The notes under the pieces: model-generated
Database searches by the model: none
What the model saw: only the letters and a program-made list of their open reading frames with translations
What the model was told of the DNA's origin: nothing
Made by a program: the position numbers and the translations under genes
In this document: positions 60 to 45,383 of the stretch, piece by piece
Position numbering within the stretch: the first letter of the stretch is position 1
How the letters are laid out: each line of letters starts with the position of its first letter
Source: a virus
Length of the DNA: 45,987 nt
IMG/VR virus record: IMGVR_UViG_3300047469_000232
Location: 1-45,987 of that record
Reading direction: 5' to 3' (one strand)

Positions 60-99
60 TGATGAATAAAGCTATTTCTGATCTTTCGTCGCACACCCC
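60..99. other. attL core
   Basis: This 40-bp stretch matches 42256-42295 at 39 of 40 positions, differing only at 79 (T) versus 42275 (C). It starts just before the mutS ATG and covers the first 12 to 13 codons. Identity stops sharply on both sides, as expected for a tyrosine-recombinase core. The mismatch falls in a serine codon (TCT/TCC) and is silent in MutS. Confidence 0.92.
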
Positions 100-15759: not shown

Positions 15760-18348
15760 TTAGACTTTGGAAAGGCGTGCCCCCAAGTTTGAACCGGCGA
15801 CCGCAGGGCTGTACTGAAGATCGAACGAAAATAGCCCCGCCTCGGTGGCCGAACCCCACCAGCCGCCGAAATTCATAACCGTCGACGAGGCCGCATAGTA
15901 GGCATCCGCATAAGTAGCATTGGACCAAGATGCATCAGCAGAGCCGGGAATAAACGTGTCGGACAGGTCATAACTAACACCAACATCATCAGCCGTAGAT
16001 GTAGCCCAGCGTGGCATCGTAGGGTTTGTAGGGGTTGGTGCGAGAATGCGCGTTGTCGTCTGGTATGACTTATTGCCATTGCGGTCCCAAATGACGACTC
16101 TAGACGAACCGTCAAGCTGTACGCCGTCGACATATTGGCAAACGTTACCCCATAGGCCGACAATCCCACGCCACGTTGCCTGGGCAACAATGGGATCATC
16201 AACAGGTAGCGGGCCAGATGAATGAATATTACCTATGCCAATTAATGACTGCGAATCAGAGCCGCCCATCTCAATCAGTGCGAGCGTTTGGATAGCGGAC
16301 AATTGATAAATGGACCACAAGGAAAATCCTGTAACCCCGCTATTATTGCGCGCCTCTGCGCGGGCTCTCATTGTCGCCATATCCAGCAAAGTCAGAGGAG
16401 CCACACCCGGCTTCGAGCCTAATTTTGTACTGCCATCCTGCGTGCCTTGATATTTTCCAACCCAAAATTGGGCCATGTCACCACCAGCATTTTTGAACGC
16501 TGGGTGCAACGAATACCCCACCGTTGGCTGATCCGACACCCATACAGCTTTTTTCCCCGCGTAAGCTCCGGCTGCAATGACCCCGCGCTTCACGTAGAAA
16601 GCAGGGATTTTGACCATATATTGCCCGTCAACAATCTGGTCTTGAATACCACCGAAAACCGGATGCGACCCAAAATACGCGGCGTCAGCGGCCCTTGCCG
16701 CGCCGTTCTCATCAACCCGCGCCCACGTCCCGGTGGCGCCGCCAGAATTCAGCAGGGCCAGTCCGATGATATTGGCGAATGATTTTTTCGTCGTGAACTT
16801 GACCTCGGGCGACCATTCCGACACGCCCTTGGCCGTACCTTCATGCTGCGCCTGGGCGTAGTAAACCGATTCGTTCGAAGACAGCACGTTAGCCGGTACA
16901 ACAATGCTCAGTTTGTTCACGGTATCGCGGCCGCTATCCCACAGCGGCACCGCATAAGTCCCAGTCGCAGTACGTATGCGGAAGCGGCTGGCCGCATGCG
17001 TATCCGCAGTGCCACCGACCATCGTAAACGCCGAGGTCGACAGCGTAGGCGTAGCCGAAACGTCCAGGGCATTGCTCGCCGGGGCGGTCATCGTCGGTGC
17101 CGCGACATACGCATACGAAGCCGCTGTAGTGAAACTGATCGGCAACGACCAGTCAGACCACTGTCCCGAAACGTCCTTGACACTGCCCACGACGTAAAAC
17201 TTGGTGCTGATCGGCAGAACACCGGCCGGGATTTGATACGACAAGCCGCTGGCCAACTCGCCCGACTCGTGCAGCAACACCGCCATGTCGGCCGTTTTCG
17301 ACAGCTTGAAGCGCACCGCTGCCTGAGCAATGTTGGTCGGGCTGCTGTAGGCCGCCAGGGCGAGCGTTGGCCGCTCCATGATGCCCACGGCACCATCAAG
17401 CGGCGAACTCATGACCGGCGTGTTTGGGCGCAGAGCCGGGTTCAAGAAGCCGCCCAGGCCGGTCGTGCTGCCCAACGCAACGATATGCGCGATGGTCATC
17501 GGCTCGCCCACTACATCCGCCCGTAGATTGCCATCGCCACGCATCGGCAGCACATACTCATAGTCTGCGAAGTTCACGGGGACAGTGCCCCCGGTACGGC
17601 GATACGACCAGCCGCATTCTGTCCACGCAGCGTGATAGCTATCACGGTAATACAAACGGATTTCACCCGTATTCAACTGGCGACGAATCACGACCGCGCC
17701 GCCGTCCGCATCGGTGCCGATGTTGATCGTCTTACTCAGGTAGATATCGCCCACATCCGCCTTCGCGTTGCTTGCGCCAAGAATGGTCAGGCTCGACCGC
17801 GACAACACGGCCGCGCCGCCCCACGCTTTTTTCAGGTTTGCGGCAAGGCGAATACGCGCAGGCGTCAGAATCGACACGACCTGTACCAGCTCCGAGAAAG
17901 GCGCCGGACCGCCCTGAGCGTCTACGGCAGTCGGATCGGTCAGCACATAGTAATCGCCGACCTTGAGCGCCGACGTATCGGCCACGTCCAGGGAGTCGTC
18001 ACCGGCAACACCTTGCACGACAGCAATGGACGCCACATCGATCAGGGTATAACCCGGCGTGAACAGCTCGAAATTGATCGCATTGTTACGGTAGGTCCAA
18101 TCCAGGGAAACGGCTTTCTGGACCGATACCGAGCTGGTCGCCTCGACCGCGCCGACGCGCTGATCGAGCTGCGCGGCGGCCTGATCGGCGGCCTGCTTGT
18201 TCGCAATTACGGCCGCATTGATCACCGTGTCGTTATCGAGAAGCGCTTGATGGATCGGGTTCCAGGTGTCCGGGTGGCCGACGCTAGCGCCTGTTAGCTT
18301 TACCAGCTCAGACGCCAGCACGGGGTTGGGGCTTGGGGTCAACGGCAT
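15760..18348 (-). CDS. Tail fibre/receptor-binding protein with a C-type-lectin-like C-terminus
   Basis: The 862-residue protein starts MPLTPSPNPVLASELVKLTG, like fibres joined to a P2-type baseplate. A coiled start, repeated beta domains (fibronectin-like around residues 310-520), and a C-terminal domain follow. The last 130 residues contain ATWRGIVGLWGNVCQYVDG and end GGWWGSATEAGLFSF...SNLGARLSKV. This resembles the formylglycine-enzyme/C-type-lectin fold of variable proteins in diversity-generating systems. No reverse transcriptase is in the window, so active diversification is not supported. The protein probably binds the host surface. Confidence 0.88.
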   Translation of the reverse strand: MPLTPSPNPVLASELVKLTGASVGHPDTWNPIHQALLDNDTVINAAVIANKQAADQAAAQLDQRVGAVEATSSVSVQKAVSLDWTYRNNAINFELFTPGYTLIDVASIAVVQGVAGDDSLDVADTSALKVGDYYVLTDPTAVDAQGGPAPFSELVQVVSILTPARIRLAANLKKAWGGAAVLSRSSLTILGASNAKADVGDIYLSKTINIGTDADGGAVVIRRQLNTGEIRLYYRDSYHAAWTECGWSYRRTGGTVPVNFADYEYVLPMRGDGNLRADVVGEPMTIAHIVALGSTTGLGGFLNPALRPNTPVMSSPLDGAVGIMERPTLALAAYSSPTNIAQAAVRFKLSKTADMAVLLHESGELASGLSYQIPAGVLPISTKFYVVGSVKDVSGQWSDWSLPISFTTAASYAYVAAPTMTAPASNALDVSATPTLSTSAFTMVGGTADTHAASRFRIRTATGTYAVPLWDSGRDTVNKLSIVVPANVLSSNESVYYAQAQHEGTAKGVSEWSPEVKFTTKKSFANIIGLALLNSGGATGTWARVDENGAARAADAAYFGSHPVFGGIQDQIVDGQYMVKIPAFYVKRGVIAAGAYAGKKAVWVSDQPTVGYSLHPAFKNAGGDMAQFWVGKYQGTQDGSTKLGSKPGVAPLTLLDMATMRARAEARNNSGVTGFSLWSIYQLSAIQTLALIEMGGSDSQSLIGIGNIHSSGPLPVDDPIVAQATWRGIVGLWGNVCQYVDGVQLDGSSRVVIWDRNGNKSYQTTTRILAPTPTNPTMPRWATSTADDVGVSYDLSDTFIPGSADASWSNATYADAYYAASSTVMNFGGWWGSATEAGLFSFDLQYSPAVAGSNLGARLSKV

Positions 18349-33886: not shown

Positions 33887-34091
33887 GGCGAGCGGCCCTT
33901 ACCTCATCGAGGGACTGACAATCGATGCACTGAGTGCAGCCCGGTACGGCAAGGCGTCGCTTCAAAGGGATAGGGTCATCACAACCCACGCAAAACAGAA
34001 AAGAATGGCCTACAGGTGCAGGCTTCCGCGAAGCGAGCGTGTGCGCCACGCCCTCAAGAACCAGATCATTTGCAAAATCCACGTTATCCAC
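33879..34091 (-). CDS. Small C4 zinc-finger protein (TraR/DksA-like)
   Basis: The 70-residue product starts at a GTG (34091, MDNVDFANDLVLEGVAHTLA) preceded by GGGGGA at good spacing. It has FCVGCDDPIP and CTQCIDCQ, two Cys pairs forming a C4 zinc finger as in phage TraR/DksA-like proteins. Such proteins can bind RNA polymerase, but the helical arm is short here. It overlaps both neighbours by about eight bases. A longer open frame upstream is a shadow. Confidence 0.8.
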   Translation of the reverse strand: MDNVDFANDLVLEGVAHTLASRKPAPVGHSFLFCVGCDDPIPLKRRLAVPGCTQCIDCQSLDEVRAARHA

Positions 34092-34602
34092 GGGGCATCC
34101 CCCGCGTCGTCTGGTTAACGTAGGAGGCACGGTTGTACATCCCCAGGAGACCTTGGATGCAACGAAAGACCAACTGGCGCAGCTCGGCCAACTCGTGGTC
34201 ATCGACGCGGCCGTCACTGATATGCGACGCCCATACTTCAGCCAGGTCCGCGACCTGATGGAAGTACTTGGCGATCCCAACCGTGAGGGTCTCAGGCATA
34301 TCACCGGTATAGCAATCCGCCAGGTCCTGCCAGATCGTGTCGCCTACCAATGCATGGATCGCATCAAGGATGCGGCGATCCTTGGTCAGCTCCAGGATTT
34401 CCCCCATTTCCTGCACATTGATGATGTGGGTCGGATGGGTCGGGGAAAGCTTGTGCTGCAACGTGGTGGGGTTTCTGCCGGTGGTGGCGGCGATTGCGGC
34501 AGCGCCGCCTGGGTAATCCCGTGCAGCATGGTATAGCGCTAATTCGAGCGTCAGGACTTCCCGTTGTGCTCGGTCAACGCAACTCAGAGCGATTCGGCTC
34601 AT
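34084..34602 (-). CDS. CII-like phage regulatory protein
   Basis: The 172-residue protein (start MSRIALSCVDRAQREVL at 34602, with AAGGA 8 bases upstream) resembles the phage regulatory CII family. The helix-turn-helix region is GGAAAIAATTGRNPTTLQHK, followed by NVQEMGEILELTKDRRILDA. It is third after the Cro-like gene in the leftward early operon, the CII position. It would help to decide between lysis and lysogeny; its targets are not visible. Confidence 0.8.
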   Translation of the reverse strand: MSRIALSCVDRAQREVLTLELALYHAARDYPGGAAAIAATTGRNPTTLQHKLSPTHPTHIINVQEMGEILELTKDRRILDAIHALVGDTIWQDLADCYTGDMPETLTVGIAKYFHQVADLAEVWASHISDGRVDDHELAELRQLVFRCIQGLLGMYNRASYVNQTTRGMPRG

Positions 34603-34613
34603 GGCATTAATCC

Positions 34614-34912: not shown

Positions 34913-35137
34913 CTAAGCAGCTTTACAAGTCACGGGCTCGGGCGGAAATACATCATCCAACGAGCACTTTGCTCCGAGCTTGTTCAATACGCGCACGATT
35001 GCCCTGCATTCTGCGAGGCCCGCAGTACGACGACCTGCCTCATAGTTGCTGACCCGCGTTTGCGTCCAGCCAAGCTCTGCGACCAGCTGCCTCTGCTTAA
35101 TACCCGCACCTTCTCGATATTCAGTAATACGATTCAT
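34913..35137 (-). CDS. cro: Cro-like helix-turn-helix repressor
   Basis: The 74-residue protein (start MNRITEYREGAGIKQRQLVA at 35137, with AGGAG 7 bases upstream) has an XRE-type helix-turn-helix, QLVAELGWTQTRVSNYEAGR. It is divergent from the CI-like repressor with shared operators between, the Cro position. It starts the leftward early operon to the CII-like and replication genes. Upstream in-frame codons run through the promoter, so a longer form is unlikely. Confidence 0.85.
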   Translation of the reverse strand: MNRITEYREGAGIKQRQLVAELGWTQTRVSNYEAGRRTAGLAECRAIVRVLNKLGAKCSLDDVFPPEPVTCKAA

Positions 35138-35162: not shown

Positions 35163-35202
35163 ATATTAAGCACGATACGTGAACTTTTCAACACGAAAAG
35201 TG
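35163..35202 (-). promoter_or_regulatory. Leftward early promoter with repressor operators
   Basis: On the minus strand, TTGAAA (35186-35191) and TAATAT (35163-35168) are 17 bp apart, a strong sigma-70 promoter for the Cro-like operon. The palindrome CACG-ATA-CGTG (35171-35181) lies in the spacer. A near copy, CACGAAAAGTG (35192-35202), lies just upstream. Both are good candidates for CI/Cro operators. A half site CGTG at 35222-35225 is near the repressor start. Confidence 0.8.
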
Positions 35203-35238
35203 GGATTAATTGATTTCAGTTCGTGATAAAAAAACCAC

Positions 35239-35988
35239 ATGAACACACTCGGCACTCGCATTAAGCAACTACGTAAAGCCGCTGGCTTGAGTCAGCAGGC
35301 TCTGGCACAAGCTTGTGGCTGGGAATCCCAGTCGCGTATCGGTAACTATGAGAAGGGCACGCGCCAGCCAAATCTGCAGGACCTTGAAAAGCTCGCCAGC
35401 GCATTGAGGGTTTCATTGCCCGATCTCGTGGCAGGCCGTGATCGGTCTGAAATTGACTCGTTTCCCGATCACATCCAGGGCCGTGTGCGGTTTGAAGACA
35501 GGATTGCCAAAGAGGCTGGGCGCTCTAGGGATAAAGGAATGGCTGTCAGCATGAATGTAGGATGGGCAAAAGATGGACGGATCCCAGTGCTAGGCAACGC
35601 GCAGCTAGGGAACGAAGGATATTTTGAGGCTTTAGATTTCCCCCCTGGCCACGGGGATGGATATCTGAATATCCATAGCGATGATCCTGATGCTTATGGC
35701 CTGAAGGTAACCGGTGACAGCATGCTGCCCCGGATCAAGAACGGTGAGTTCGTGCTCATCGAACCCAATAAAAGCTTCTACAGCGGGGACGAGGTTATGG
35801 TCCGCACCACTGCGGGCAGGACTATGATCAAAGAATTCATTTACTTGCGTGACGGGATGTACCGACTAGACAGCGTGAACTCGGAGCATTCCCCTATCCA
35901 TCTGCCTGAAAATGACGTGTTAGAGATACATCTGGTAGGCGGAATCTTGAAATCATCACGCTTTTTACACAGCTCAGCCGAGTTTTAA
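35239..35988 (+). CDS. cI: CI-like phage repressor (XRE helix-turn-helix plus S24 peptidase)
   Basis: The 249-residue protein maintains lysogeny by binding operators on both sides of its gene. The N-terminal helix-turn-helix is LSQQALAQACGWESQSRIGN (18-37). The C-terminal domain is a self-cleaving S24 peptidase with Ser161 in GDSMLPR and Lys198 in MIKEF, spacing 37. The cleavage hinge lies near PVLGNAQLG (116-124). It is therefore expected to be cut during the SOS response, inducing the phage. No clear ribosome site precedes the ATG, as in some weakly translated or leaderless repressor messages. Confidence 0.93.
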   Translation: MNTLGTRIKQLRKAAGLSQQALAQACGWESQSRIGNYEKGTRQPNLQDLEKLASALRVSLPDLVAGRDRSEIDSFPDHIQGRVRFEDRIAKEAGRSRDKGMAVSMNVGWAKDGRIPVLGNAQLGNEGYFEALDFPPGHGDGYLNIHSDDPDAYGLKVTGDSMLPRIKNGEFVLIEPNKSFYSGDEVMVRTTAGRTMIKEFIYLRDGMYRLDSVNSEHSPIHLPENDVLEIHLVGGILKSSRFLHSSAEF

Positions 35989-36000
35989 TCACACATTGTA

Positions 36001-36029
36001 TTGACACCAATAAGCACGTTGCGTGATAT
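36001..36029 (+). promoter_or_regulatory. Rightward early promoter with repressor operator
   Basis: TTGACA (36001-36006) and TGATAT (36024-36029) are 17 bp apart. The palindrome CACG-TTG-CGTG (36015-36025) overlaps the spacer and -10, the same form as the operator at 35171-35181. So this promoter is very likely silenced by the CI-like protein in the lysogen. It drives the operon from 36066 towards integrase. Confidence 0.82.
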
Positions 36030-36065
36030 TTGCCTCACTCTTCCACCACAGAGCGAGGCAACACC

Positions 36066-36242
36066 ATGCACACCACTGCAACGCTGCACGTCCATCCGGC
36101 CGTAGCGAACCCCATCCGCGTCTTTGAAATTCGCCACCTGGCTCGCGAAGCAGGCTGCGCGTTCATCAGTAGCAAGCCCAAAAGCAAGCTCCGCAGCACT
36201 CCCACCCCCTTCGACCCTAACGGCGGCGGGCGTGCAGCATGA
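36066..36242 (+). CDS. Small phage protein of unknown function (first early gene)
   Basis: The 58-residue product (MHTTATLHVHPAVANPIRVF) is the first gene after the repressor-controlled promoter. The Met at 36066 is chosen because the frame upstream lies in promoter sequence. The protein is basic and Pro-rich at its end, with KPKSKLRSTPTPF. It overlaps the next gene by four bases. Function is unknown. Confidence 0.65.
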   Translation: MHTTATLHVHPAVANPIRVFEIRHLAREAGCAFISSKPKSKLRSTPTPFDPNGGGRAA

Positions 36243-36829
36243 GCAAGTTCAAATTCGATAAACGCGCCCTCACTCTGCTCAGCGCCCAGGTCAACCTGAG
36301 CGAGACCTTCACTCACATCCTGCGATCAACACCACAGCGGAAGGCCCTTTCCTTTCGCTTGAAGATCGAGCGTAACGATGAAGACACCACCTTCATCGTT
36401 GAGCTGGGCTCTGAGCGGCATACGCTGACCCTGGCAAACGGCAAGAAGAGCCACTTAAAGCTGGCCGACTTCATCGAAGAGATCGCCAACGGGCCTGGAG
36501 AGCATCATTGCAACGGTGCTATCGCAGCGCTTCCCCAGGATGAACGTCAGTACGGCGTTCTGAGCACAGAGCAGCGCGAACAGGTGTTCAACCTAGTGTG
36601 TAAAGGGGGAACGTTGATGCTGGATCTCGGCTTCGAGCTGCCCATTCATATCGCGCACCACCGTACGTACACCCGCACGGGCTCCACGACAATCATGAGC
36701 ATTGGCATCAAGAATCCAAGGACCAAGTGCTTCACCCTGACCGGCGATGAAACCGACATCTACAAGCGGCTGATCGAATCCATCAACCACCTGGCAGCGA
36801 TTGCAACGCCTGCAGCGCATGCGGCGTAG
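36239..36829 (+). CDS. Phage early protein of unknown function
   Basis: The 196-residue protein begins MSKFKFDKRALTLLSAQVNL and was not recognised. It looks soluble and mixed alpha/beta, with a strand-rich first part (ALSFRLKIERNDEDTTFIVE) and a helical end. It is not truncated and its start overlaps the previous stop. Its place in the early operon suggests a role in host takeover or in regulation. Confidence 0.75.
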   Translation: MSKFKFDKRALTLLSAQVNLSETFTHILRSTPQRKALSFRLKIERNDEDTTFIVELGSERHTLTLANGKKSHLKLADFIEEIANGPGEHHCNGAIAALPQDERQYGVLSTEQREQVFNLVCKGGTLMLDLGFELPIHIAHHRTYTRTGSTTIMSIGIKNPRTKCFTLTGDETDIYKRLIESINHLAAIATPAAHAA

Positions 36830-36839
36830 GGAGGCGATC

Positions 36840-37124
36840 ATGGACCGCGACCTCAAGAAAACCGCCGACTACTTCGGGATCTCCCGCCCAAAGCTGATTT
36901 CCTTGATGCGAGAGAAAGGCTTGCTCAATGACCGGCGCTTGCCGGCCTTTCCCACTCGGGACCGCGCTTACCTGGGCGTGAAAGACGGACAGTGGTTTCA
37001 CCCGGTACATGGCATGCAGTACTGCCAATCCCTCCGGGTGAAGCAACAGGGCATCCCATGGCTTGCAGAGCAGCTGGGCCTCGAACTCCCGCCAATACCG
37101 GCGGACAGCCGTGGCGTGGCCTAG
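36840..37124 (+). CDS. KilA-C-like (phage antirepressor domain) protein
   Basis: The 94-residue protein starts at 36840 (MDRDLKKTADYFGISRPKLI) behind a GGAGG site. It resembles the KilA-C DNA-binding domain of phage antirepressors, with a helix-turn-helix KTADYFGISRPKLISLMREK, followed by LPAFPTRDRAYLGVKDGQWF and GMQYCQSLRVKQQGIPWLAE. It lacks the N-terminal Bro or KilA-N domain of full antirepressors. It could bind DNA or counter the repressor. Confidence 0.8.
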   Translation: MDRDLKKTADYFGISRPKLISLMREKGLLNDRRLPAFPTRDRAYLGVKDGQWFHPVHGMQYCQSLRVKQQGIPWLAEQLGLELPPIPADSRGVA

Positions 37125-37275
37125 GGAATACGCTCGCCAGATAGTCGCCTTAAAAACCAAAGAGGAGCGCAACGCAGCGCTCCTTGAGGTTCCAGAGCAC
37201 CTGCGCGAGCTGACAAAAACCCATTGCCTGATCGCCTGGAACCACCCCAAAAGGAAAAAAACCGATGACAAGTAG
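37111..37275 (+). CDS. Small phage protein of unknown function
   Basis: The 54-residue product starts at a GTG (37111, MAWPREYARQIVALKTKEER) that overlaps the end of the previous gene by 14 bases. It is charged and helical, with RNAALLEVPEHLRELTKTHC. A longer frame from 37063 is only a shadow of the neighbour. Its 3' end overlaps the next gene by 11 bases, as in tightly packed early operons. Small proteins of this kind are common in Pseudomonas prophages and their role is unknown. Confidence 0.65.
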   Translation: MAWPREYARQIVALKTKEERNAALLEVPEHLRELTKTHCLIAWNHPKRKKTDDK

Positions 37276-37588
37276 CCAGCCACCGCTACGACTGATGCCA
37301 CCACCAGAGGCGGCTACCGTCGAGCTGCTCTATCGCACTTTTGGCGATGTGCTGATCCCCCTGGACAAGCTGCGCGTGCAGTACTTCCGCAACCTCAATG
37401 AGCGCTCGTTTGTAACAGAGATAGAGAGCGGCCGCATCCAGCTTCCGATCACAACACTGGACAGCAGCCGCAAGGCTCCGAAGTTTGCCCACATCCGACA
37501 CGTCGCGGCACTGATCGATATTCGGGCCTACAAGGCGGACGAAGAAATGGACGCGCAACAGAAAGGCTTAACCGACCAACCCACGTAA
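37265..37588 (+). CDS. PrtN-like (pyocin activator family) protein
   Basis: The 107-residue protein resembles the PrtN family, whose best-known member activates pyocin genes in P. aeruginosa. Typical parts are ATVELLYRTFGDVLIPLDKL, QYFRNLNERSFVTEIESGRI and LPITTLDSSRKAPKFAHIRH, ending in a helix-turn-helix-like region. It lies in the repressor-controlled early operon. In this phage it may activate late genes, but that is inferred from the family. Confidence 0.8.
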   Translation: MTSSQPPLRLMPPPEAATVELLYRTFGDVLIPLDKLRVQYFRNLNERSFVTEIESGRIQLPITTLDSSRKAPKFAHIRHVAALIDIRAYKADEEMDAQQKGLTDQPT

Positions 37589-37631
37589 ACCAAAGGCTGC
37601 CACCACCAGCCATTACCCAAGGCACACCACC

Positions 37632-38090
37632 ATGACCAATACACAGAGCATTGCGCTATTAGCACTGATCATCCTGGCACTCGCGATCATCTGGATCAGC
37701 TACTGGATGGGCCGCCGAGAAGGCCAGGAAAACCGCGCCACAGACATCGAAACCGACCTGCAGGTCATGGACTTGTCCGAGAGTTTGGCGAAGGCCAACA
37801 GAGAGCTGTTTTCCGTGAGACTCGATTGTGCCACCAAAATCGAGGACCTACGCCAAGAGGTTGCGAAGCACAAACAGACCCAGACACTGAGTCTGAAGGT
37901 CGAGACATCTGACCTGCGCACCCTCTACCGGCTCGCAGCGATTCTGACACTCGCAGCTGACACTTTCGAAGGTTTGCGCGCCAAACTCAAAGCCGCCGAA
38001 GCCCGTAAAGCGGCGCAAGACTGCTTGGCCTTGGCGGCGACTCTCAAGATGCAGGCCCCCCAAGCAGCAGCTATGGAGCGTGCAGCATGA
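37632..38090 (+). CDS. Membrane-anchored coiled-coil protein of unknown function
   Basis: The 152-residue protein has a clear N-terminal membrane segment (IALLALIILALAIIWISYWM), followed by a charged helical region likely to be coiled coil (SLAKANRELFSVRLDCATKI, DLRQEVAKHKQ) and an Ala-rich end. The topology would put the bulk in the cytoplasm (basic MGRREGQ after the segment). It overlaps the next gene by four bases. The role is unknown; superinfection exclusion is only a possibility. Confidence 0.75.
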   Translation: MTNTQSIALLALIILALAIIWISYWMGRREGQENRATDIETDLQVMDLSESLAKANRELFSVRLDCATKIEDLRQEVAKHKQTQTLSLKVETSDLRTLYRLAAILTLAADTFEGLRAKLKAAEARKAAQDCLALAATLKMQAPQAAAMERAA

Positions 38091-38308
38091 ATCGCACTCC
38101 ACTGGCTCGCCTCACCCCACGCGCAGCGGGCGAACTGCAACATCACTGCGAATGCATCAGCAAACGCCTGCATGAGCTTGCCCGCTACCACGAAGAGTTC
38201 GATCAACAGCTCAAAGCGCTGATAGGTCCCGACGCAACCCTTGAGCTGCATCAAAAAACCGCAGATGCGGTCTTGCTGGCAGCGCTGAAAAAGGAGGTTG
38301 CAGCATGA
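38087..38308 (+). CDS. Small helical phage protein of unknown function
   Basis: The 73-residue protein starts MNRTPLARLTPRAAGELQHH and is helical and charged (RLHELARYHEEFDQQLKALI). It overlaps both neighbours by four bases (ATGA), so it is certainly translated with them. No known motif is seen. Confidence 0.7.
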   Translation: MNRTPLARLTPRAAGELQHHCECISKRLHELARYHEEFDQQLKALIGPDATLELHQKTADAVLLAALKKEVAA

Positions 38309-39123
38309 GCTGGATCCTCACTCATACCGGCCAGCGCTTCGACCTGCATGAGCCGGACGCCGCTCTGATCGACCCACGGGATATCTCTCACGCACTGGCG
38401 AACATCTGCCGCTTTAACGGCCACACACGCGAGTTTTACAGCGTCGCCCAGCATTGCTGCATGATCGCTGACCTGGTTGCGGACGAATACAAGTTAGCTG
38501 CGCTGCTGCATCACGCATCTCAAGCGTACACCGGCGATATGGTCCGCCCCCTTAAACAATGGATTCTTCAATTCCTGGACGTTCAAGACTGGCTCTGGGA
38601 GCGGATCTGCACTCGCTTCGATCTTGATACGGAACTGCCTGAACCCGTGCGCCAAGCGAACCTCACTGCTCTCGCGACAGAACGCCGTGATCTCATGCCC
38701 CACGATCCGGCTATCTGGAATTGCTTGGTAGGCATCGAGCCACTCCCCGAGCGCATCCGCCCATGGTCGGCTATCGAGGCCCGGAACACCTACCACCATC
38801 GCCTGATGGATCAGCTCGCAATCGAGCACCGGAGAAAAGCGGGGAGTGCAATTGCTGAGGCTTACGCAATGCCCGCCCCCGCTTTGCTCCGTGATAGCAG
38901 CAGCATCGACACGCAGAAAACAAACAGATGCTGCGAAGCAGTAGGCATTACCGCTTTTTCCAGCGCCGCCTCCGATGTGCCTCTACCCCATGAAAAGCTG
39001 CGCGAGGCAGCTTTTCCCGAAGGAACGCTAAACGCTCAACAATGCCCGCACGCGCAGCTTGTCGTGGGGTATACGGACGTTACTACCGCTCAAACCGGGC
39101 CGGTGAATGAGGTGCTGAAATGA
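38305..39123 (+). CDS. HD-domain-like nucleotide phosphohydrolase with altered HD motif
   Basis: The 272-residue protein resembles YfbR/HDc-type phage nucleotidases: MSWILTHTGQRFDLHEPD, YSVAQHCCMIADLV (His50) and ALLHHASQAYTGDMVRPLK (67-84). The usual motif here is LLHDASEAYIGD; this copy reads HH at 69-70 and Q73 in place of E. Both changes are single G-to-C changes in the codons. The Asp of HD normally binds metal, so activity may be reduced. A C-terminal tail of about 85 residues goes beyond the family. It precedes the cytosine methylase gene. Confidence 0.82.
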   Translation: MSWILTHTGQRFDLHEPDAALIDPRDISHALANICRFNGHTREFYSVAQHCCMIADLVADEYKLAALLHHASQAYTGDMVRPLKQWILQFLDVQDWLWERICTRFDLDTELPEPVRQANLTALATERRDLMPHDPAIWNCLVGIEPLPERIRPWSAIEARNTYHHRLMDQLAIEHRRKAGSAIAEAYAMPAPALLRDSSSIDTQKTNRCCEAVGITAFSSAASDVPLPHEKLREAAFPEGTLNAQQCPHAQLVVGYTDVTTAQTGPVNEVLK

Positions 39124-40805
39124 CCTCTTTCATCCACACATCAATCACTACTGCGATCAACACTCAGTTCGGGCTGAATTTAGGCGGTGGGCTTCGCGTC
39201 GACCTATTCGCCGGAGGCGGCGGTGCAACTATGGGCCAAGAAATGGCTACCGGCATCCCAGTGGACATCGCCATCAACCATAACCAAAACGCGATCAGCA
39301 TGCACAAGCGCAACCATCCGGGTGCCGATCACTACATCAGCGATGTATATGAAGTCTGCCCGCGCAGTGCTACACGCGGCCGCCCGGTTCACCACCTGCA
39401 TGCCAGCCCAGAATGCACTCACCATAGCCTCGCGGCGGGAGGCCAGGCACGGTGCACGAGCAGTCGCTCGTTGTCATGGGTAATCATCAAATGGGCAGGC
39501 CAAGTGCGCCCTGACAAGATCACCATGGAAAATGTGATTCAGATCCTTCAATGGGGGCCGCTGATCGCGAAAAGATGCCCGAAAACTGGAAGAGTCATTC
39601 GTAAAGATAAGACAGTTGCTGCACCAGGCGAACGGGTTCCGGTACAAGATCAATATCTGATACCTGACCCAAAACGCAAAGGCCGGACATGGAGCCGGTT
39701 CGTGCAATTGTTGAAAGACATGGGCTACCAGGTCATGCACGGCAAGCTGAAAGCTTGTGATTTCGGCGCGGCAACCACCCGCGATCGGCTGTACTTCATA
39801 GCACGATGCGACGGTAAGCCTTTGCGGTGGCCCGAGCCGACACACTTCAAAGTACCTGCGAAAGGACAAGCGCCCTGGGGCACCTCCGCCGACATCATCG
39901 ACTGGTCAATTCCTTGCCCCAGTATTTTTCTCGACAAAGAGCAAAGTAAGGCAGCTGGCGTTCGACGACCGCTTGCAGCCAAAACTATGGAGCGCCTACG
40001 TAAAGGTGCAAAACGCTACGTCACCGAACATCCAAATCCATTCATCGTCGGCCGCACCGACCGTGTTCCGCTAATAGGCCAGCCTTTGAAACTGGCACCG
40101 TTTCTCACAGAACATGCCAATGCGACCAGCCAACGCAACATGTCCGTCGAGGCACCCCTGGGGACCGTCTGCGCGCAGGTCAAGGGAGGTCACTTCGCTT
40201 TAGCAGTTGCATACGTCGCGCAGCACAACGGCGGTTTCAACACCACGTTAGGACGTCATCCCAGCGAGCCGCTGACAGCAATCACTACCACCGGAAGCCA
40301 GCAGCAGATCGTCACGGCTCACTTGAGCACACTACGTAGAAACGGCGTGGGACGCGCTATCAGCGAACCCGTCCCAACGATTACTGCCGGCGGGGAACAT
40401 CACGCGCTAGTCGAATACACCCTCGCTCCAGAGAACGAGGCCGGTGCAATGCGCGTGGCCGCGTTCATGATGGGTTACTACGGCAGCGACAACACCTACG
40501 ACCTACGCAACCCAACAGCAACCATCACCACCAAGGACCGGCTTGCGCTGGTCACCGTCACGATCAAGGGCACGCCCTATGTGATCGTGGATATCGGCAT
40601 GCGGATGCTGACACCCAGAGAGCTGTATCGAGCGCAGGGCTTCCCGGACAACTACGTGATTGACCAGGGGCATGACGGGCGGACGTTCAGCAAGAAAGAC
40701 CAGGTGAAGATGTGCGGAAACTCGGTTTCACCGTGGCCGATGATGGCGCTGATTAAAGCCAACATGGATCAGGAGCAGGAAGAAGTCAGGGGGATTGCAG
40801 CATGA
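39120..40805 (+). CDS. DNA cytosine C5-methyltransferase (phage Dcm-like)
   Basis: The 561-residue enzyme methylates cytosine using S-adenosylmethionine. Motif I is DLFAGGGGAT (28-37). The catalytic Cys is in SPECTHHS (C99), the phage variant of the usual PCQ motif. ENV (137-139) is motif VI, and the C-terminal part with TPRELYRAQGFPDNYVI is motifs IX/X. Target recognition lies in between and its specificity is unknown. With the Dam-type gene, the phage has two methylases and no restriction partner. It overlaps both neighbours by four bases. Confidence 0.92.
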   Translation: MTSFIHTSITTAINTQFGLNLGGGLRVDLFAGGGGATMGQEMATGIPVDIAINHNQNAISMHKRNHPGADHYISDVYEVCPRSATRGRPVHHLHASPECTHHSLAAGGQARCTSSRSLSWVIIKWAGQVRPDKITMENVIQILQWGPLIAKRCPKTGRVIRKDKTVAAPGERVPVQDQYLIPDPKRKGRTWSRFVQLLKDMGYQVMHGKLKACDFGAATTRDRLYFIARCDGKPLRWPEPTHFKVPAKGQAPWGTSADIIDWSIPCPSIFLDKEQSKAAGVRRPLAAKTMERLRKGAKRYVTEHPNPFIVGRTDRVPLIGQPLKLAPFLTEHANATSQRNMSVEAPLGTVCAQVKGGHFALAVAYVAQHNGGFNTTLGRHPSEPLTAITTTGSQQQIVTAHLSTLRRNGVGRAISEPVPTITAGGEHHALVEYTLAPENEAGAMRVAAFMMGYYGSDNTYDLRNPTATITTKDRLALVTVTIKGTPYVIVDIGMRMLTPRELYRAQGFPDNYVIDQGHDGRTFSKKDQVKMCGNSVSPWPMMALIKANMDQEQEEVRGIAA

Positions 40806-40999
40806 CACTACCACGCTGGGTACTCATTAACCGCGCCTCTGAATTGACCGGCTATAGCGAAGACGCAATCCGCCACAAAGTAAAGAACGGAACTTGGCCA
40901 CAAGGCAGGATCTGGCGAAAAGCACCCGATGGGCGCATCACCATCAATATGACGGAGTACGACAAGTGGGCCGAGAGCGCACCGCAGGAAGCAGCCTAG
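40802..40999 (+). CDS. xis: Excisionase (Xis-like)
   Basis: The 65-residue protein has the pattern of phage excisionases: MTLPRWVLINRASELTGYSE, DAIRHKVKNGTWPQGRIWRK, and [14 protein letters not shown]. It directs the integrase to excise the prophage. It sits directly before integrase and overlaps its probable GTG start. Confidence 0.88.
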   Translation: MTLPRWVLINRASELTGYSEDAIRHKVKNGTWPQGRIWRKAPDGRITINMTEYDKWAESAPQEAA

Positions 41000-42237
41000 A
41001 AAACGAGCTGGCTAAGCATAAAGGCATAGAGCTTCATGGCGGATATCTACGCATCGTCTTCATGTGGCGACGCAAACGACACCGCCAGGCGCTTGGCCTT
41101 CCATCAACTAAAGCCAATATTAAGTATGCCGCCCAATTACGGGCGGCAATTCTTCATGAGATAAAAACCGGGACATTCGACTACGCTCGACACTTCCCGG
41201 ATTCCATTAACGCACAGAACAAAAGTTCACGAAGGGATGAACCGCTAAAAGAATTGGCAAAGCGATACAAACCACTGAAAGCTGTCGACCTCACCCCAAT
41301 GACAGAGACCAAGTACGAAGTAGCCCTCGACATTTGTGTGGAGCTGGTCGGCGAAGATCGTTTCGCCAGCATTTTGTTGCCTGAAGATATCCAGGTATTG
41401 CGCACTCAGCTCATCACAGATCGAGCCCCGTCCACAACAAATCACTATTTGGCCACCTTTGCTGGTTTTTTGTCGTGGTGCGAAACCAACGGATACGCTC
41501 GAGCAGGACTGGCCGCGACGTGCAACCGATTCGCGATGAGCGTCAAAGATCCCGATCCGCTCACCAAAGACGAGTTTGAATTACTGATAACCAAAGGTTG
41601 CCTGCATATCCAAGACACTGCCGCCATTACGTTAGCCGTGTACACCGGACTACGACCAGGTGAGCTTTGTGCTTTAGGGGTTGAAGACATCGATTTTGAC
41701 GCAGGATTGATCAACGTAACACGCGCCATCACTGCAGACGGCGAATTCAAAGTGCCCAAGACGGAGAGAAGCCGCACAGTTTTACTTATGCCTCCAGCGA
41801 TTGAAGCATGCAAGCAACTGGTTGCCCTTGCTGCAACACTCAAACCAATAAATGTACGGGTGGCACTGAACCGTCACGAGAGCAGGTTCGACAAGATAAC
41901 TCCGCTGCTTTCGCCCAGTACACAAGCTCGAAAGGAGATAATCAATGATTGGTTTACGCCAACGGCATGGAATACCAAATGGGGGAACGTACAACGACGG
42001 GCAGGAATTCGGCACCGGCGACCCTACCAAACCAGGCACACCTACGCCTGCTGGTGTTTAACCGCCCGTGGTAACCTTGCGTTCATCGCAAAGCAGATGG
42101 GCCACAAAGACTTCACCATGCTGGTTGAGGTCTACGCCAAGTGGATGGATGACGAATCACCGACCGAGCTTCAGCACATCTGGTCAGGCATTCAGAAGCA
42201 AAAGCAAAATGCCCCAAATTTGCCCCACAAAAATTGA
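40966..42237 (+). CDS. int: Tyrosine integrase
   Basis: The protein (about 423 residues from GTG 40966, behind GGAG) joins phage and host att sites. An alternative CTG at 41008 gives [12 protein letters not shown] and 409 residues. The N-terminal arm-binding domain contains [20 protein letters not shown] and [17 protein letters not shown]. The catalytic domain has [11 protein letters not shown] (first Arg), [16 protein letters not shown] and the nucleophile Tyr in VYAKWM. Next to attR, it stops 20 bp before the mutS ATG. No terminator lies between, so int transcripts can continue into mutS. Confidence 0.93.
42210..42227 (+). repeat. TGCCCCA-n-TTTGCCCCA repeat, right arm copy
   Basis: TGCCCCAAATTTGCCCCA lies within the last codons of integrase, 28 bp before the core. 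It matches 225-242 at 16 of 18 positions. The two copies lie on either side of the prophage. Confidence 0.5.
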
Positions 42238-42255
42238 CAAGTATTCGTAACCTAT

Positions 42256-42295
42256 TGATGAATAAAGCTATTTCCGATCTTTCGTCGCACACCCC
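42256..42295. other. attR core
   Basis: The right copy of the 40-bp core overlaps the mutS start. Host sequence follows directly (mutS codon 14 on). The single mismatch to attL (42275) is silent in MutS. Confidence 0.92.
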
Positions 42296-44837
42296 CATGA
42301 TGCAGCAATACTGGCGGCTGAAGAATCAGCATCCTGATCAGTTGATGTTCTATCGCATGGGTGACTTCTACGAAATCTTCTACGAAGACGCGAAGAAAGC
42401 CGCCAAATTGCTGGATATCACCCTGACCGCGCGTGGCCAGTCCGCCGGGCAGAGCATCCCCATGTGCGGCATTCCCTATCACGCCGCCGAAGGCTACCTG
42501 GCCAAATTGGTCAAGCTCGGTGAGTCGGTGGTGATCTGCGAGCAGATCGGCGACCCCGCAACCAGCAAAGGCCCGGTTGAACGCCAGGTAGTACGTATCA
42601 TCACGCCCGGCACTGTCAGCGATGAAGCCCTGCTCGATGAACGCCGCGACAACCTGATCGCCGCCGTACTGGGTGACGAACGCCTGTTCGGCCTGGCCGT
42701 GCTGGATATTAATAGCGGACATTTCAGCGTCCAGGAGATCAAGGGCTGGGAGAACCTGCTGGCCGAACTGGAGCGGACCAATCCGGTCGAACTGTTGATC
42801 CCGGACGACTGGCCTCAGGGTTTGCCCGCCGAGAAACGTCGCGGCTCACGGCGTCGTGCGCCCTGGGACTTCGAGCGTGACACGGCCCATAAAAGTCTTT
42901 GCCAGCAATTCGCTACCCAGGACCTGAAAGGCTTCGGCTGCGAAAACCTGACCCTGGCCATCGGTGCTGCCGGTTGCCTGCTGGCCTATGCCAAGGAAAC
43001 CCAGCGCACCGCCCTGCCACACTTGCGCAGCCTGCGCCACGAGCGCATGGACGATACCGTCATCCTTGATGGCGCCAGCCGCCGTAACCTGGAACTGGAC
43101 ACCAACCTTGCCGGTGGCCGCGACAACACCCTGCAATCGGTGATGGACCGCTGCCAGACCGCCATGGGCACGCGCCTGCTGACCCGCTGGTTGAACCGTC
43201 CCTTGCGCGACCTGAACATCCTGCTGGCGCGGCAGAGCTCGATCCGCTGCCTGCTGGAAAGCTACCGCTTCGAAAAGCTGCAACCGCAGCTCAAGGAAAT
43301 CGGCGATATCGAGCGGATCCTTGCCCGGATCGGCCTGCGCAATGCTCGGCCTCGGGACCTGGCGCGCCTGCGCGATGCCCTAAACGCCCTGCCCGAGCTG
43401 CAAGTGGGCATGACCGAGCTGGACGCCCCGCATTTGCAACACCTGGCTACCACCACCAGCACCTATCCGGAATTGGCCGACCTGCTGCAACGCGCGATCA
43501 TCGACAATCCGCCTGCGGTGATTCGCGATGGTGGCGTGCTGAAAACCGGCTACGACGCCGAACTGGACGACCTGCAATCGCTGAGCGAAAACGCCGGGCA
43601 GTTCCTGATCGACCTGGAAACCCGGGAAAAGGCCCGCACCGGCCTGGCTAACCTGAAAGTCGGTTATAACCGTATCCACGGTTACTTCATCGAGCTACCG
43701 AGCAAGCAGGCTGAACAGGCGCCCGCTGATTACATCCGCCGCCAGACCCTCAAGGGCGCGGAGCGCTTCATTACCCCTGAGTTGAAAGAGTTCGAAGACA
43801 AGGCGCTGTCCGCCAAGAGCCGCGCCCTGGCCCGGGAAAAAATGCTTTACGAAGCATTGCTGGAGGACTTGATCGGCCATCTGGCGCCCTTGCAGGACAC
43901 CGCGGGCGCTCTCGCCGAACTGGATGTGCTCGCCAACCTGGCCGAACGCGCGCTGAACCTGGATCTCAATTGTCCGCGCTTCGTCGACGAGCCGTGCATG
44001 CGCATCGACCAGGGCCGGCATCCGGTAGTCGAGCAGGTCCTGACCACGCCTTTCGTGGCCAATGATCTGGCCCTGGACGACAGCACCCGCATGTTGGTGA
44101 TCACAGGTCCGAACATGGGCGGTAAATCCACCTACATGCGCCAGACCGCTCTGATTGTGCTGCTTGCCCATATCGGCAGCTTCGTTCCGGCCGCCAGTTG
44201 CGAACTGTCCCTGGTGGATCGCATCTTCACCCGTATCGGCTCCAGTGACGATCTGGCGGGCGGGCGTTCGACCTTCATGGTGGAGATGAGCGAAACCGCC
44301 AATATCCTGCACAACGCCACGGACAAAAGCCTGGTGCTGATGGACGAAGTCGGCCGCGGCACCAGTACCTTTGACGGTTTGTCCCTGGCCTGGGCTGCGG
44401 CGGAATGTCTCGCCCAGTTGCGCGCCTATACCTTGTTCGCGACTCACTATTTCGAGCTGACGGTTCTGCCGGAAAGCGAGCCCCTGGTGGCCAACGTCCA
44501 TCTCAATGCCACCGAACACAACGAACGTATCGTCTTCCTGCACCGGGTACTGCCGGGGCCGGCCAGCCAGAGCTACGGCTTGGCCGTGGCCCAACTGGCG
44601 GGGGTTCCAGCCCGTGTCATCGGTCGCGCCAAGGAGCATCTGCAGCGCCTGGAAACCACCAGCCTGCCCCACGAGCAGCCGAAAGCCAAGCCAGGGAAAC
44701 CGGCAGTTCCGCAACAAAGCGACCTGTTCGCCAGCCTGCCGCACCCGGTGCTGGAGGACTTGAGCAAGGTCAAACTCGACGACCTCACGCCGCGTCAGGC
44801 ACTAGAGTTGTTGTACACATTACAAACTCGCCTGTGA
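42258..44837 (+). CDS. mutS: DNA mismatch repair protein MutS
   Basis: The 859-residue protein binds base mismatches and begins repair with MutL. The start is set at ATG 42258 ([20 protein letters not shown]), the native start; an in-frame TTG at 42234 is phage sequence. Mismatch-binding [11 protein letters not shown] lies near residue 35-45, the Walker [15 protein letters not shown] near 617-630, and [14 protein letters not shown] near 695-708. The C-terminal [14 protein letters not shown] is the usual tetramer region. The protein is complete, but its native promoter is now 42 kb away. There is no good ribosome site in the new leader; the native one was also weak. Confidence 0.97.
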
Positions 44838-45059: not shown

Positions 45060-45383
45060 ATGACCTTCGTCGTCACCGACAACTGCATCAAGTGCAAGTA
45101 CACCGACTGCGTAGAAGTCTGTCCGGTGGACTGCTTCTACGAAGGCCCGAACTTCCTGGTGATTCACCCGGACGAGTGCATCGATTGTGCGCTCTGCGAG
45201 CCTGAATGCCCTGCCAACGCGATCTTCTCCGAAGATGAGATACCGGCAGGCATGGAAAACTTCATCGAGCTCAACGCCGAGCTGGCTGATATCTGGCCCA
45301 ACATCACTGAAAAGAAAGAAATGCTGCCCGACGCGGCGCAGTGGGATGGCAAGCCAGGCAAGATCGCTGACCTGGAACGCTGA
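45060..45383 (+). CDS. fdxA: Ferredoxin FdxA (7Fe, 3Fe-4S/4Fe-4S type)
   Basis: The 107-residue protein is a small cytoplasmic electron carrier. The N-terminal Cys series ([20 protein letters not shown]) and the second ([16 protein letters not shown]) bind two iron-sulfur clusters of the Azotobacter 7Fe type. The ribosome site AGGAG is 10 bases before the ATG. Its location between mutS and rsmZ/rpoS is conserved in Pseudomonas. A GC-rich hairpin lies in the leader (about 45008-45035). A terminator follows the gene. Confidence 0.96.

Follow-up and report, generated by a model that had tools for sequence, protein, structure and literature searches.

How does a lysogen keep expressing mutS when a prophage occupies the first codons of that gene, and does the phage repressor govern the supply? 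The window analyzed here (the whole stretch of DNA, 45,987 bases, a virus record from a provirus collection) raises both questions. The original prediction had answered them together: a repressor acting on one operator form at both early promoters could, on SOS cleavage, release a transcript that runs from the rightward promoter through xis and int into mutS, coupling a repair gene to phage induction.

A prophage in the first codons of mutS

Codons 1–13 of mutS are present twice in the window: at 60–99 (+ strand), where they are followed by unrelated sequence, and at 42256–42295 (+ strand), where they continue into the full gene (mutS, 42258–44837, + strand; NCBIfam equivalog TIGR01070, 1295.8 bits). 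The host gene fdxA lies 3′ of mutS (45060–45383, + strand; NCBIfam equivalog NF045490, 6.5e-52). The two copies share 39 of 40 bases (exact runs of 19 and 20 around one synonymous mismatch), and the repeat ends at CACACCCC, which encodes H-T-P; MMQQ comes next, so that the codons of the HTPMMQQ motif are the insertion point. The repeated mutS start at both ends indicates that the phage inserted within mutS, the copy at 60–99 being the attL core (an orphan host mutS start) and that at 42256–42295 the attR core, in which the phage restores the reading frame. Judged by these features, the window is a temperate Pseudomonas prophage, integrated via its own tyrosine integrase in mutS codons 1–13, and because of this position mutS in the lysogen depends on phage-side DNA. 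Probable Int arm-type sites, a function inferred, occur as GCCCCATTTTTGCCCCA in the left arm (226–242, + strand) and as GCCCCAAATTTGCCCCA in the right arm (42211–42227, + strand), the latter also being found upstream of mutS in relatives; the arm-type sequence has two matches in the window against 0.11 expected. We considered GCCCCANNNNTGCCCCA as a promoter and rejected it: copies lie beside both att sites, and we take them to be Int arm sites.

Relatives of the integrase were collected at 26 loci from a genome scan and 68 from a viral scan. Of the genome loci, 25 have mutS downstream of the int relative, and the stretch of the remaining one (L013), which ends 1.3 kb past int, contains no mutS. 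Both int and a mutS start are visible in 79 loci, the window included; the remainder end before mutS or have no mutS match. These 79 loci fall into two layouts. Int abuts mutS in 25 (the direct layout, with gaps of −1 to 79 bp), among them the window, where int ends at 42237 and the mutS ATG is at 42258, a gap of 20 nt. The other 54 (the cargo layout) carry about 0.8–4.4 kb between the two genes, with ORFs (picked mechanically) mostly on the opposite strand. Because cargo separates int from mutS in 54 of 79 relatives, an int–mutS transcript is not a conserved feature, and on these layouts co-transcription of the two genes is not a general property of the elements. Overlap of the int stop with the mutS ATG was also discarded as a common form of coupling: only three of the 25 direct elements overlap (L022, L107, and L128), and the integrase proteins of L022 and L128 are identical.

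The slot between int and mutS has contents of its own. Ten cargo proteins were tested, of which seven have a PIN_8 domain, two a metallo-beta-lactamase fold, and one an AAA ATPase domain (PtuA/AriA models); the loci include L006, L009, L010, L075, L080, L088, and L020, and the slot may be a defence hotspot. Four loci (L002, L003, L070, and L079) have an extra int-like 3′ fragment beside mutS as well as a complete int, which suggests that their cargo entered between two int ends. Outside Pseudomonas, the int search found two of 369 genomes of the class at 1e-60 and two of 390 genomes of the order at 1e-80, the centre genome being included in both counts. E. coli DNA matches covered at most 12% of the query among the matches listed, and phage records gave two weak matches only.

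The early switch and the rightward operon

A CI-like repressor with HTH and S24 peptidase domains (35239–35988, + strand; PF01381, 9.9e-17; PF00717, 2.7e-17; phrog_4, 9.1e-42) is divergent from a leftward early gene for a Cro-like HTH protein (34913–35137, − strand; PF13560/PF01381), and a CII-like regulator (Phage_CP76) is encoded at 34084–34605 (− strand; PF06892, 1.7e-20; phrog_101). The promoter scan placed a leftward promoter, TTGAAA-17-TAATAT, at 35163–35191 (− strand) and the rightward early promoter PR at 36001–36030 (+ strand; TTGACA-18-GATATT, 10 of 12, or by eye TGATAT at 17 nt). As predicted, CACG-N3-CGTG is seen in both, at 35171–35181 (CACGATACGTG) and at 36015–36025 (CACGTTGCGTG), so that the early promoters have an operator form in common, with one site in each −35/−10 spacer. 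A second left operator-like site, CACGAAAAGTG (35192–35202), can be read 21 bp from the first, and in relatives the similar CACGNAAAGTG stands at its place.

The number of such sites is not in itself informative: the window has three, including one at 17624, against 1.55 expected, and at least three were found in 18 of 100 shuffles. What gives CACG-N3-CGTG its meaning is its position in the promoter spacers, and that position is kept in relatives. Among 34 repressor relatives on viral contigs, which were not dereplicated and include several near-copies, 26 have the exact left form at precisely 68 bp upstream of the repressor start, 21 have a relaxed form (T/C and A/G at the ends) no more than 53 bp beyond the repressor stop, and 13 have a site on both sides. 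Where the exact left form is missing, the rows read have a site at that position with one to three mismatches. The three central bases vary (ATA, AAA, TAT, ATT, GAT, CAC, and others) and the arms are constant, which is what would be expected of an operator. We therefore find it convincing, from sequence and comparison, that these are the predicted operators of a CI/Cro switch in which divergent repressor and Cro-like genes share operators at both early promoters; that the two sites are chance matches, as their number would allow, is very improbable given their fixed position in relatives and their varying centre.

S161 and K198 of the repressor's S24 domain are invariant in 10 aligned repressors, and so is the dipeptide near the expected cleavage site, Leu123-Gly124; LexA and CI are cleaved at Ala-Gly or Cys-Gly. 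SOS cleavage of the repressor is uncertain because its likely site is Leu-Gly, though the S24 serine and lysine are present. Among the 60 matches listed, solved structures for the repressor comprised only HTH relatives and no S24 relative.

All of the genes assigned between 36239 and 42237 are on the + strand. An early gene of unassigned function (36239–36829; phrog_15582, 1.1e-72) is followed by one with weak similarity to KilAC/Ant antirepressors (36840–37124; PF03374, 7.1e-4, which is below the cut-off; phrog_5689), a similarity that points to a possible induction route other than SOS. The gene at 37265–37588 belongs to the PrtN-like pyocin activator/excisionase family (PF11112, 2.9e-29; phrog_1300); a gene of the PrtN family thus stands inside a phage early operon, and related genes occur in many relatives. 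Further along are genes for a deoxyribonucleoside 5′-monophosphate phosphatase-like protein (38305–39123; phrog_318, 7.1e-62), a DNA cytosine methyltransferase (39120–40805; PF00145, 5.1e-27), an Xis-like protein (40802–40999; phrog_539, 2.7e-14), and the tyrosine integrase (40978–42237; PF12167 and PF00589), the exact start of which is uncertain. The int reading frame (ORF from 40858) overlaps xis, and the codons in the overlap are almost invariant in both layout groups, as expected of dual coding. The PR transcript would begin with a conserved 5′ leader stem-loop (36034–36065, + strand), with 11 pairs and −15.4 kcal/mol in nine sequences; it is almost invariant, so that it offers no covariation test. 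The GAGG that precedes the first ATG lies in its 3′ arm, and translational control is possible.

The original prediction also held that this operon reaches mutS without a visible terminator, and here too the sequence agrees with it. PR, the xis-like gene, int, and mutS all read in the + direction; the + strand terminator hits from 36030 to 42258 fall within int, and the region as a whole has 13 hits, compared with 13.2 in shuffled sequence. Read-through from PR to mutS is thus possible in this element.

A candidate mutS promoter within int

Comparison of the elements placed a candidate mutS promoter inside int. Its extended −10, TGGTAACCT (42069–42077, + strand), is written in the R-G-N-L codons of int and lies 189 nt upstream of the mutS ATG, and a weak −35-like CTGCTG (42048–42053, + strand) can be read 18 bp before it, in Ala and Cys codons that are conserved in the direct group. 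The R-G-N-L codons contain TGGTAAYCT in all 25 direct elements, whereas the −10 form TGNTANNNT is found there in only seven of the 54 cargo elements (Fisher 1.3e-14, ignoring kinship); after dereplication the counts were 22/22 and 6/51. A scan of the 134 four- or six-fold degenerate int codons open to testing ranked Gly 42070 (1.00 versus 0.36) and Arg 42067 (1.00 versus 0.41) first by how far codon sharing in the direct group exceeds that in the cargo group. Part of the signal may be regional, since the direct group likewise shows stronger conservation at other codons near the 3′ end of int (T 42115, A 42046, I 42178, E 42166, K 42091, and D 42109). On an int tree of 73 rows built by a quick method, in which supported, independent pairs were counted, the layout changes 12 times; the motif went with the layout in six pairs, against it in none, and did not differ in three (p about 0.03).

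In cargo elements a similar element is found next to mutS itself. In the 250 nt preceding mutS, the strict motif TGNTA[AC]NCT occurs on the + strand in 41 of 54 (36 of 49 after dereplication), between the cassette and mutS, and is absent from 13. Shuffled sequences gave means of 0.9 for the cargo elements and 0.4 for mutS leaders that have no int (described below), and 85 of 14,397 random windows had a match. On the − strand before mutS, the strict motif was found in none of 49 cargo elements and none of 40 int-less leaders. In the cargo elements the motif is not just inherited int sequence, since 34 of the 41 cases have flanks unlike int.

New loci drawn from 398 genomes of the genus behaved similarly as long as the integrase was closely related. 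With integrases of at least 66% identity, the int motif was present in three of three direct loci and in none of six others, although in four of those six mutS is absent from the short stretch, so that int does not abut it; one of the direct loci (L206) comes from a genome whose mutS leader had already been sampled (L184). Three divergent loci lack the motif: L190, which abuts mutS directly (59% int identity); L210, which carries cargo (56%); and L209, which has no mutS within its stretch.

A TTGACA-like −35 consensus is not enriched upstream of the motif (2.31 matches versus 2.30 in shuffled sequence); many int-less leaders, like the window, have the word CTGC at a spacing of 17–18 bp. We also tried a standard sigma70 scan as a finder of mutS promoters and set it aside: it gave nothing within 300 bp of mutS in the window and nothing in the 54 int-less leaders, which indicates that it is blind to whatever drives mutS.

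The int-less leaders come from a search of 199 Pseudomonas genomes, of which 198 have a mutS start. We examined the sequence upstream of 60 of these starts and found a matching integrase within 3 kb in six, leaving 54 leaders without int. The strict motif is present in 46 of the 54 and absent from eight, and 36 of 40 have it on the + strand, but the leaders are related to each other and these counts are not independent. Of the 46 motif-bearing leaders, 39 resemble int in the sequence flanking the motif as well (shuffle fraction <0.01). An HMM of the int C terminus scored six leaders below 0.01, all on the + strand, and no shuffled leaders; the best of them reads SACVGLTAHGNLAPIAEKPGH against a stretch of 21 protein letters. 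The next gene upstream was read by eye at 14 loci: in several it looks like an HTH-S24 (PrtR-like) repressor, and in L159 like cinA.

Such leaders raise the possibility that mutS-inserting phage integrases carry a mutS promoter written in synonymous codons, and that decay of a prophage, for example to a tailocin cluster, would leave about 20 int codons with the promoter as the mutS leader. That many Pseudomonas run mutS from a promoter born in a phage int and kept as a fossil, with a CI-controlled second input possible in intact lysogens, is a proposal that we regard as evenly balanced. If it is true, mutS transcripts of tailocin-bearing Pseudomonas would begin just past TGNTAACCT.

Accounts of mutS expression and known systems

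We consider it probable that a prophage in mutS codons 1–13, whose early promoter PR is shut by CI/Cro, keeps mutS on through the int-embedded TGGTAACCT. Integration leaves the host's promoter and mutS start stranded at the left end, and an intact mutS is rebuilt behind int by attR. In the lysogen, CI (with Cro on the lytic side) would act at the CACG-N3-CGTG sites to shut PR, and the extended −10 in the R-G-N-L codons would maintain mutS. This −10 is consistently preserved by synonymous codon choice in elements whose int adjoins mutS, and those with cargo usually have an equivalent element beside mutS. Induction may bring read-through from PR that adds to, or interferes with, the int-embedded promoter, and excision would give mutS back to the host promoter. 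This account predicts that mutS is not silent while the element is integrated.

The alternative that survives best, which we hold as a tentative possibility, makes the int-embedded promoter the source of basal mutS expression in the lysogen and gives PR read-through a part after induction, as a CI-dependent layer that adds to or interferes with it. Both promoter candidates and an open path are present, and the available account of SpyCIM5 offers a parallel, in that an int promoter drives mutL and mitomycin C lowers expression (Scott et al., PMC3430984); a read-through of 6.2 kb may, on the other hand, be attenuated. It is unlikely that the TGNTANCCT motif is some other element, such as a protein site or an integration accessory site, or that its conservation reflects shared ancestry near attR. 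Such a reading would suit the missing −35 consensus and the conservation of neighboring codons, but the motif is strand-specific (36/49 on the + strand and 0 on the −), its distance from att varies (about −81 to −190) in a way unsuited to a fixed att site, and 34 of 41 cargo elements have it amid unrelated sequence.

We regard as quite unlikely the account closest to the original prediction, in which mutS is expressed mainly from CI-controlled PR through xis and int, so that SOS induction raises mutS and lysogens have little. The operator in PR, the co-directional genes, terminators no more frequent than in shuffles, and the 20 nt gap between int and mutS are all in its favor. It would, however, leave lysogens short of MutS; cargo, mostly opposed, separates int from mutS in 54 of 79 relatives; int itself contains a conserved promoter candidate; and the CI cleavage site is atypical. 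The proposed coupling of repressor to mutS accordingly keeps its parts (the operators, the common direction, the lack of a clear terminator, and the S24 domain) and loses its place as the main control, given that a lysogen needs mutS while PR is repressed, that so many relatives carry cargo, and that int contains a −10 candidate of its own. The int-embedded promoter is probably the better account of mutS expression, and repressor-to-mutS coupling is at most an added layer.

Two claims that had been joined are thereby separated: operator control of the early promoters, which is well supported by sequence comparison, and a possible control of mutS. The comparison narrows the candidate mutS promoter to within 30 bp. 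If the preferred reading is right, lysogeny in a repair gene need not turn the host into a mutator, selection on synonymous codons maintains a promoter within a phage gene, and part of Pseudomonas may depend on phage-derived DNA to control its mutation rate. Among the titles and abstract openings listed in searches of the open-access literature, we found no description of an int-embedded, synonymously conserved mutS promoter in Pseudomonas.

In lambda-type CI/Cro immunity, a divergent repressor and Cro-like gene share operators over two early promoters, and the repressor has an S24 domain. The window has the same divergent genes, shared operators, and S24 domain, but it differs in that xis and int belong to a rightward operon that ends at attR, and in its operator sequence and Leu-Gly dipeptide.

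The SpyCI islands of Streptococcus pyogenes are likewise mobile elements at the 5′ end of a mismatch-repair gene. In the available account, the promoter that drives mutL in SpyCIM5 was mapped to that island's broken int, and a reporter for this region was expressed less after mitomycin C (Scott et al., PMC3430984). The proposed likeness is that a promoter within the int reading frame, here a candidate, can drive the repair gene. The SpyCIM5 case concerns mutL, an unrelated host, and a cryptic promoter in a broken int, whereas here the gene is mutS, int is mostly intact, and the −10 element is conserved across many elements.

Within Pseudomonas, prophages and tailocin-like clusters have been described between mutS and cinA, the same chromosomal site (Mavrodi et al., 2009, PMC2647930); the accessible part of that report makes no mention of insertion inside mutS codons or of int-derived mutS leaders. 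The closest known elements are those of Chu et al. (2017, PMC5296598), whose paper, in its accessible part, describes elements that insert in mutS in Beta- and Gammaproteobacteria, with Pseudomonas putida F1 among the hosts; these elements target HTPMMQQ and supply a mutS promoter region and start. As in those elements, a tyrosine integrase is adjacent to mutS here, the insertion lies in the HTPMMQQ codons, an orphan host mutS start remains at the far end (60–99), and mutS is kept in frame with a start supplied by the element; by every sequence feature that could be tested, the element belongs to that kind. The same account leaves open how element-supplied mutS regulation behaves during occupancy and does not locate the promoter, whereas here comparison places a candidate inside int and a CI/Cro switch is described upstream of it.
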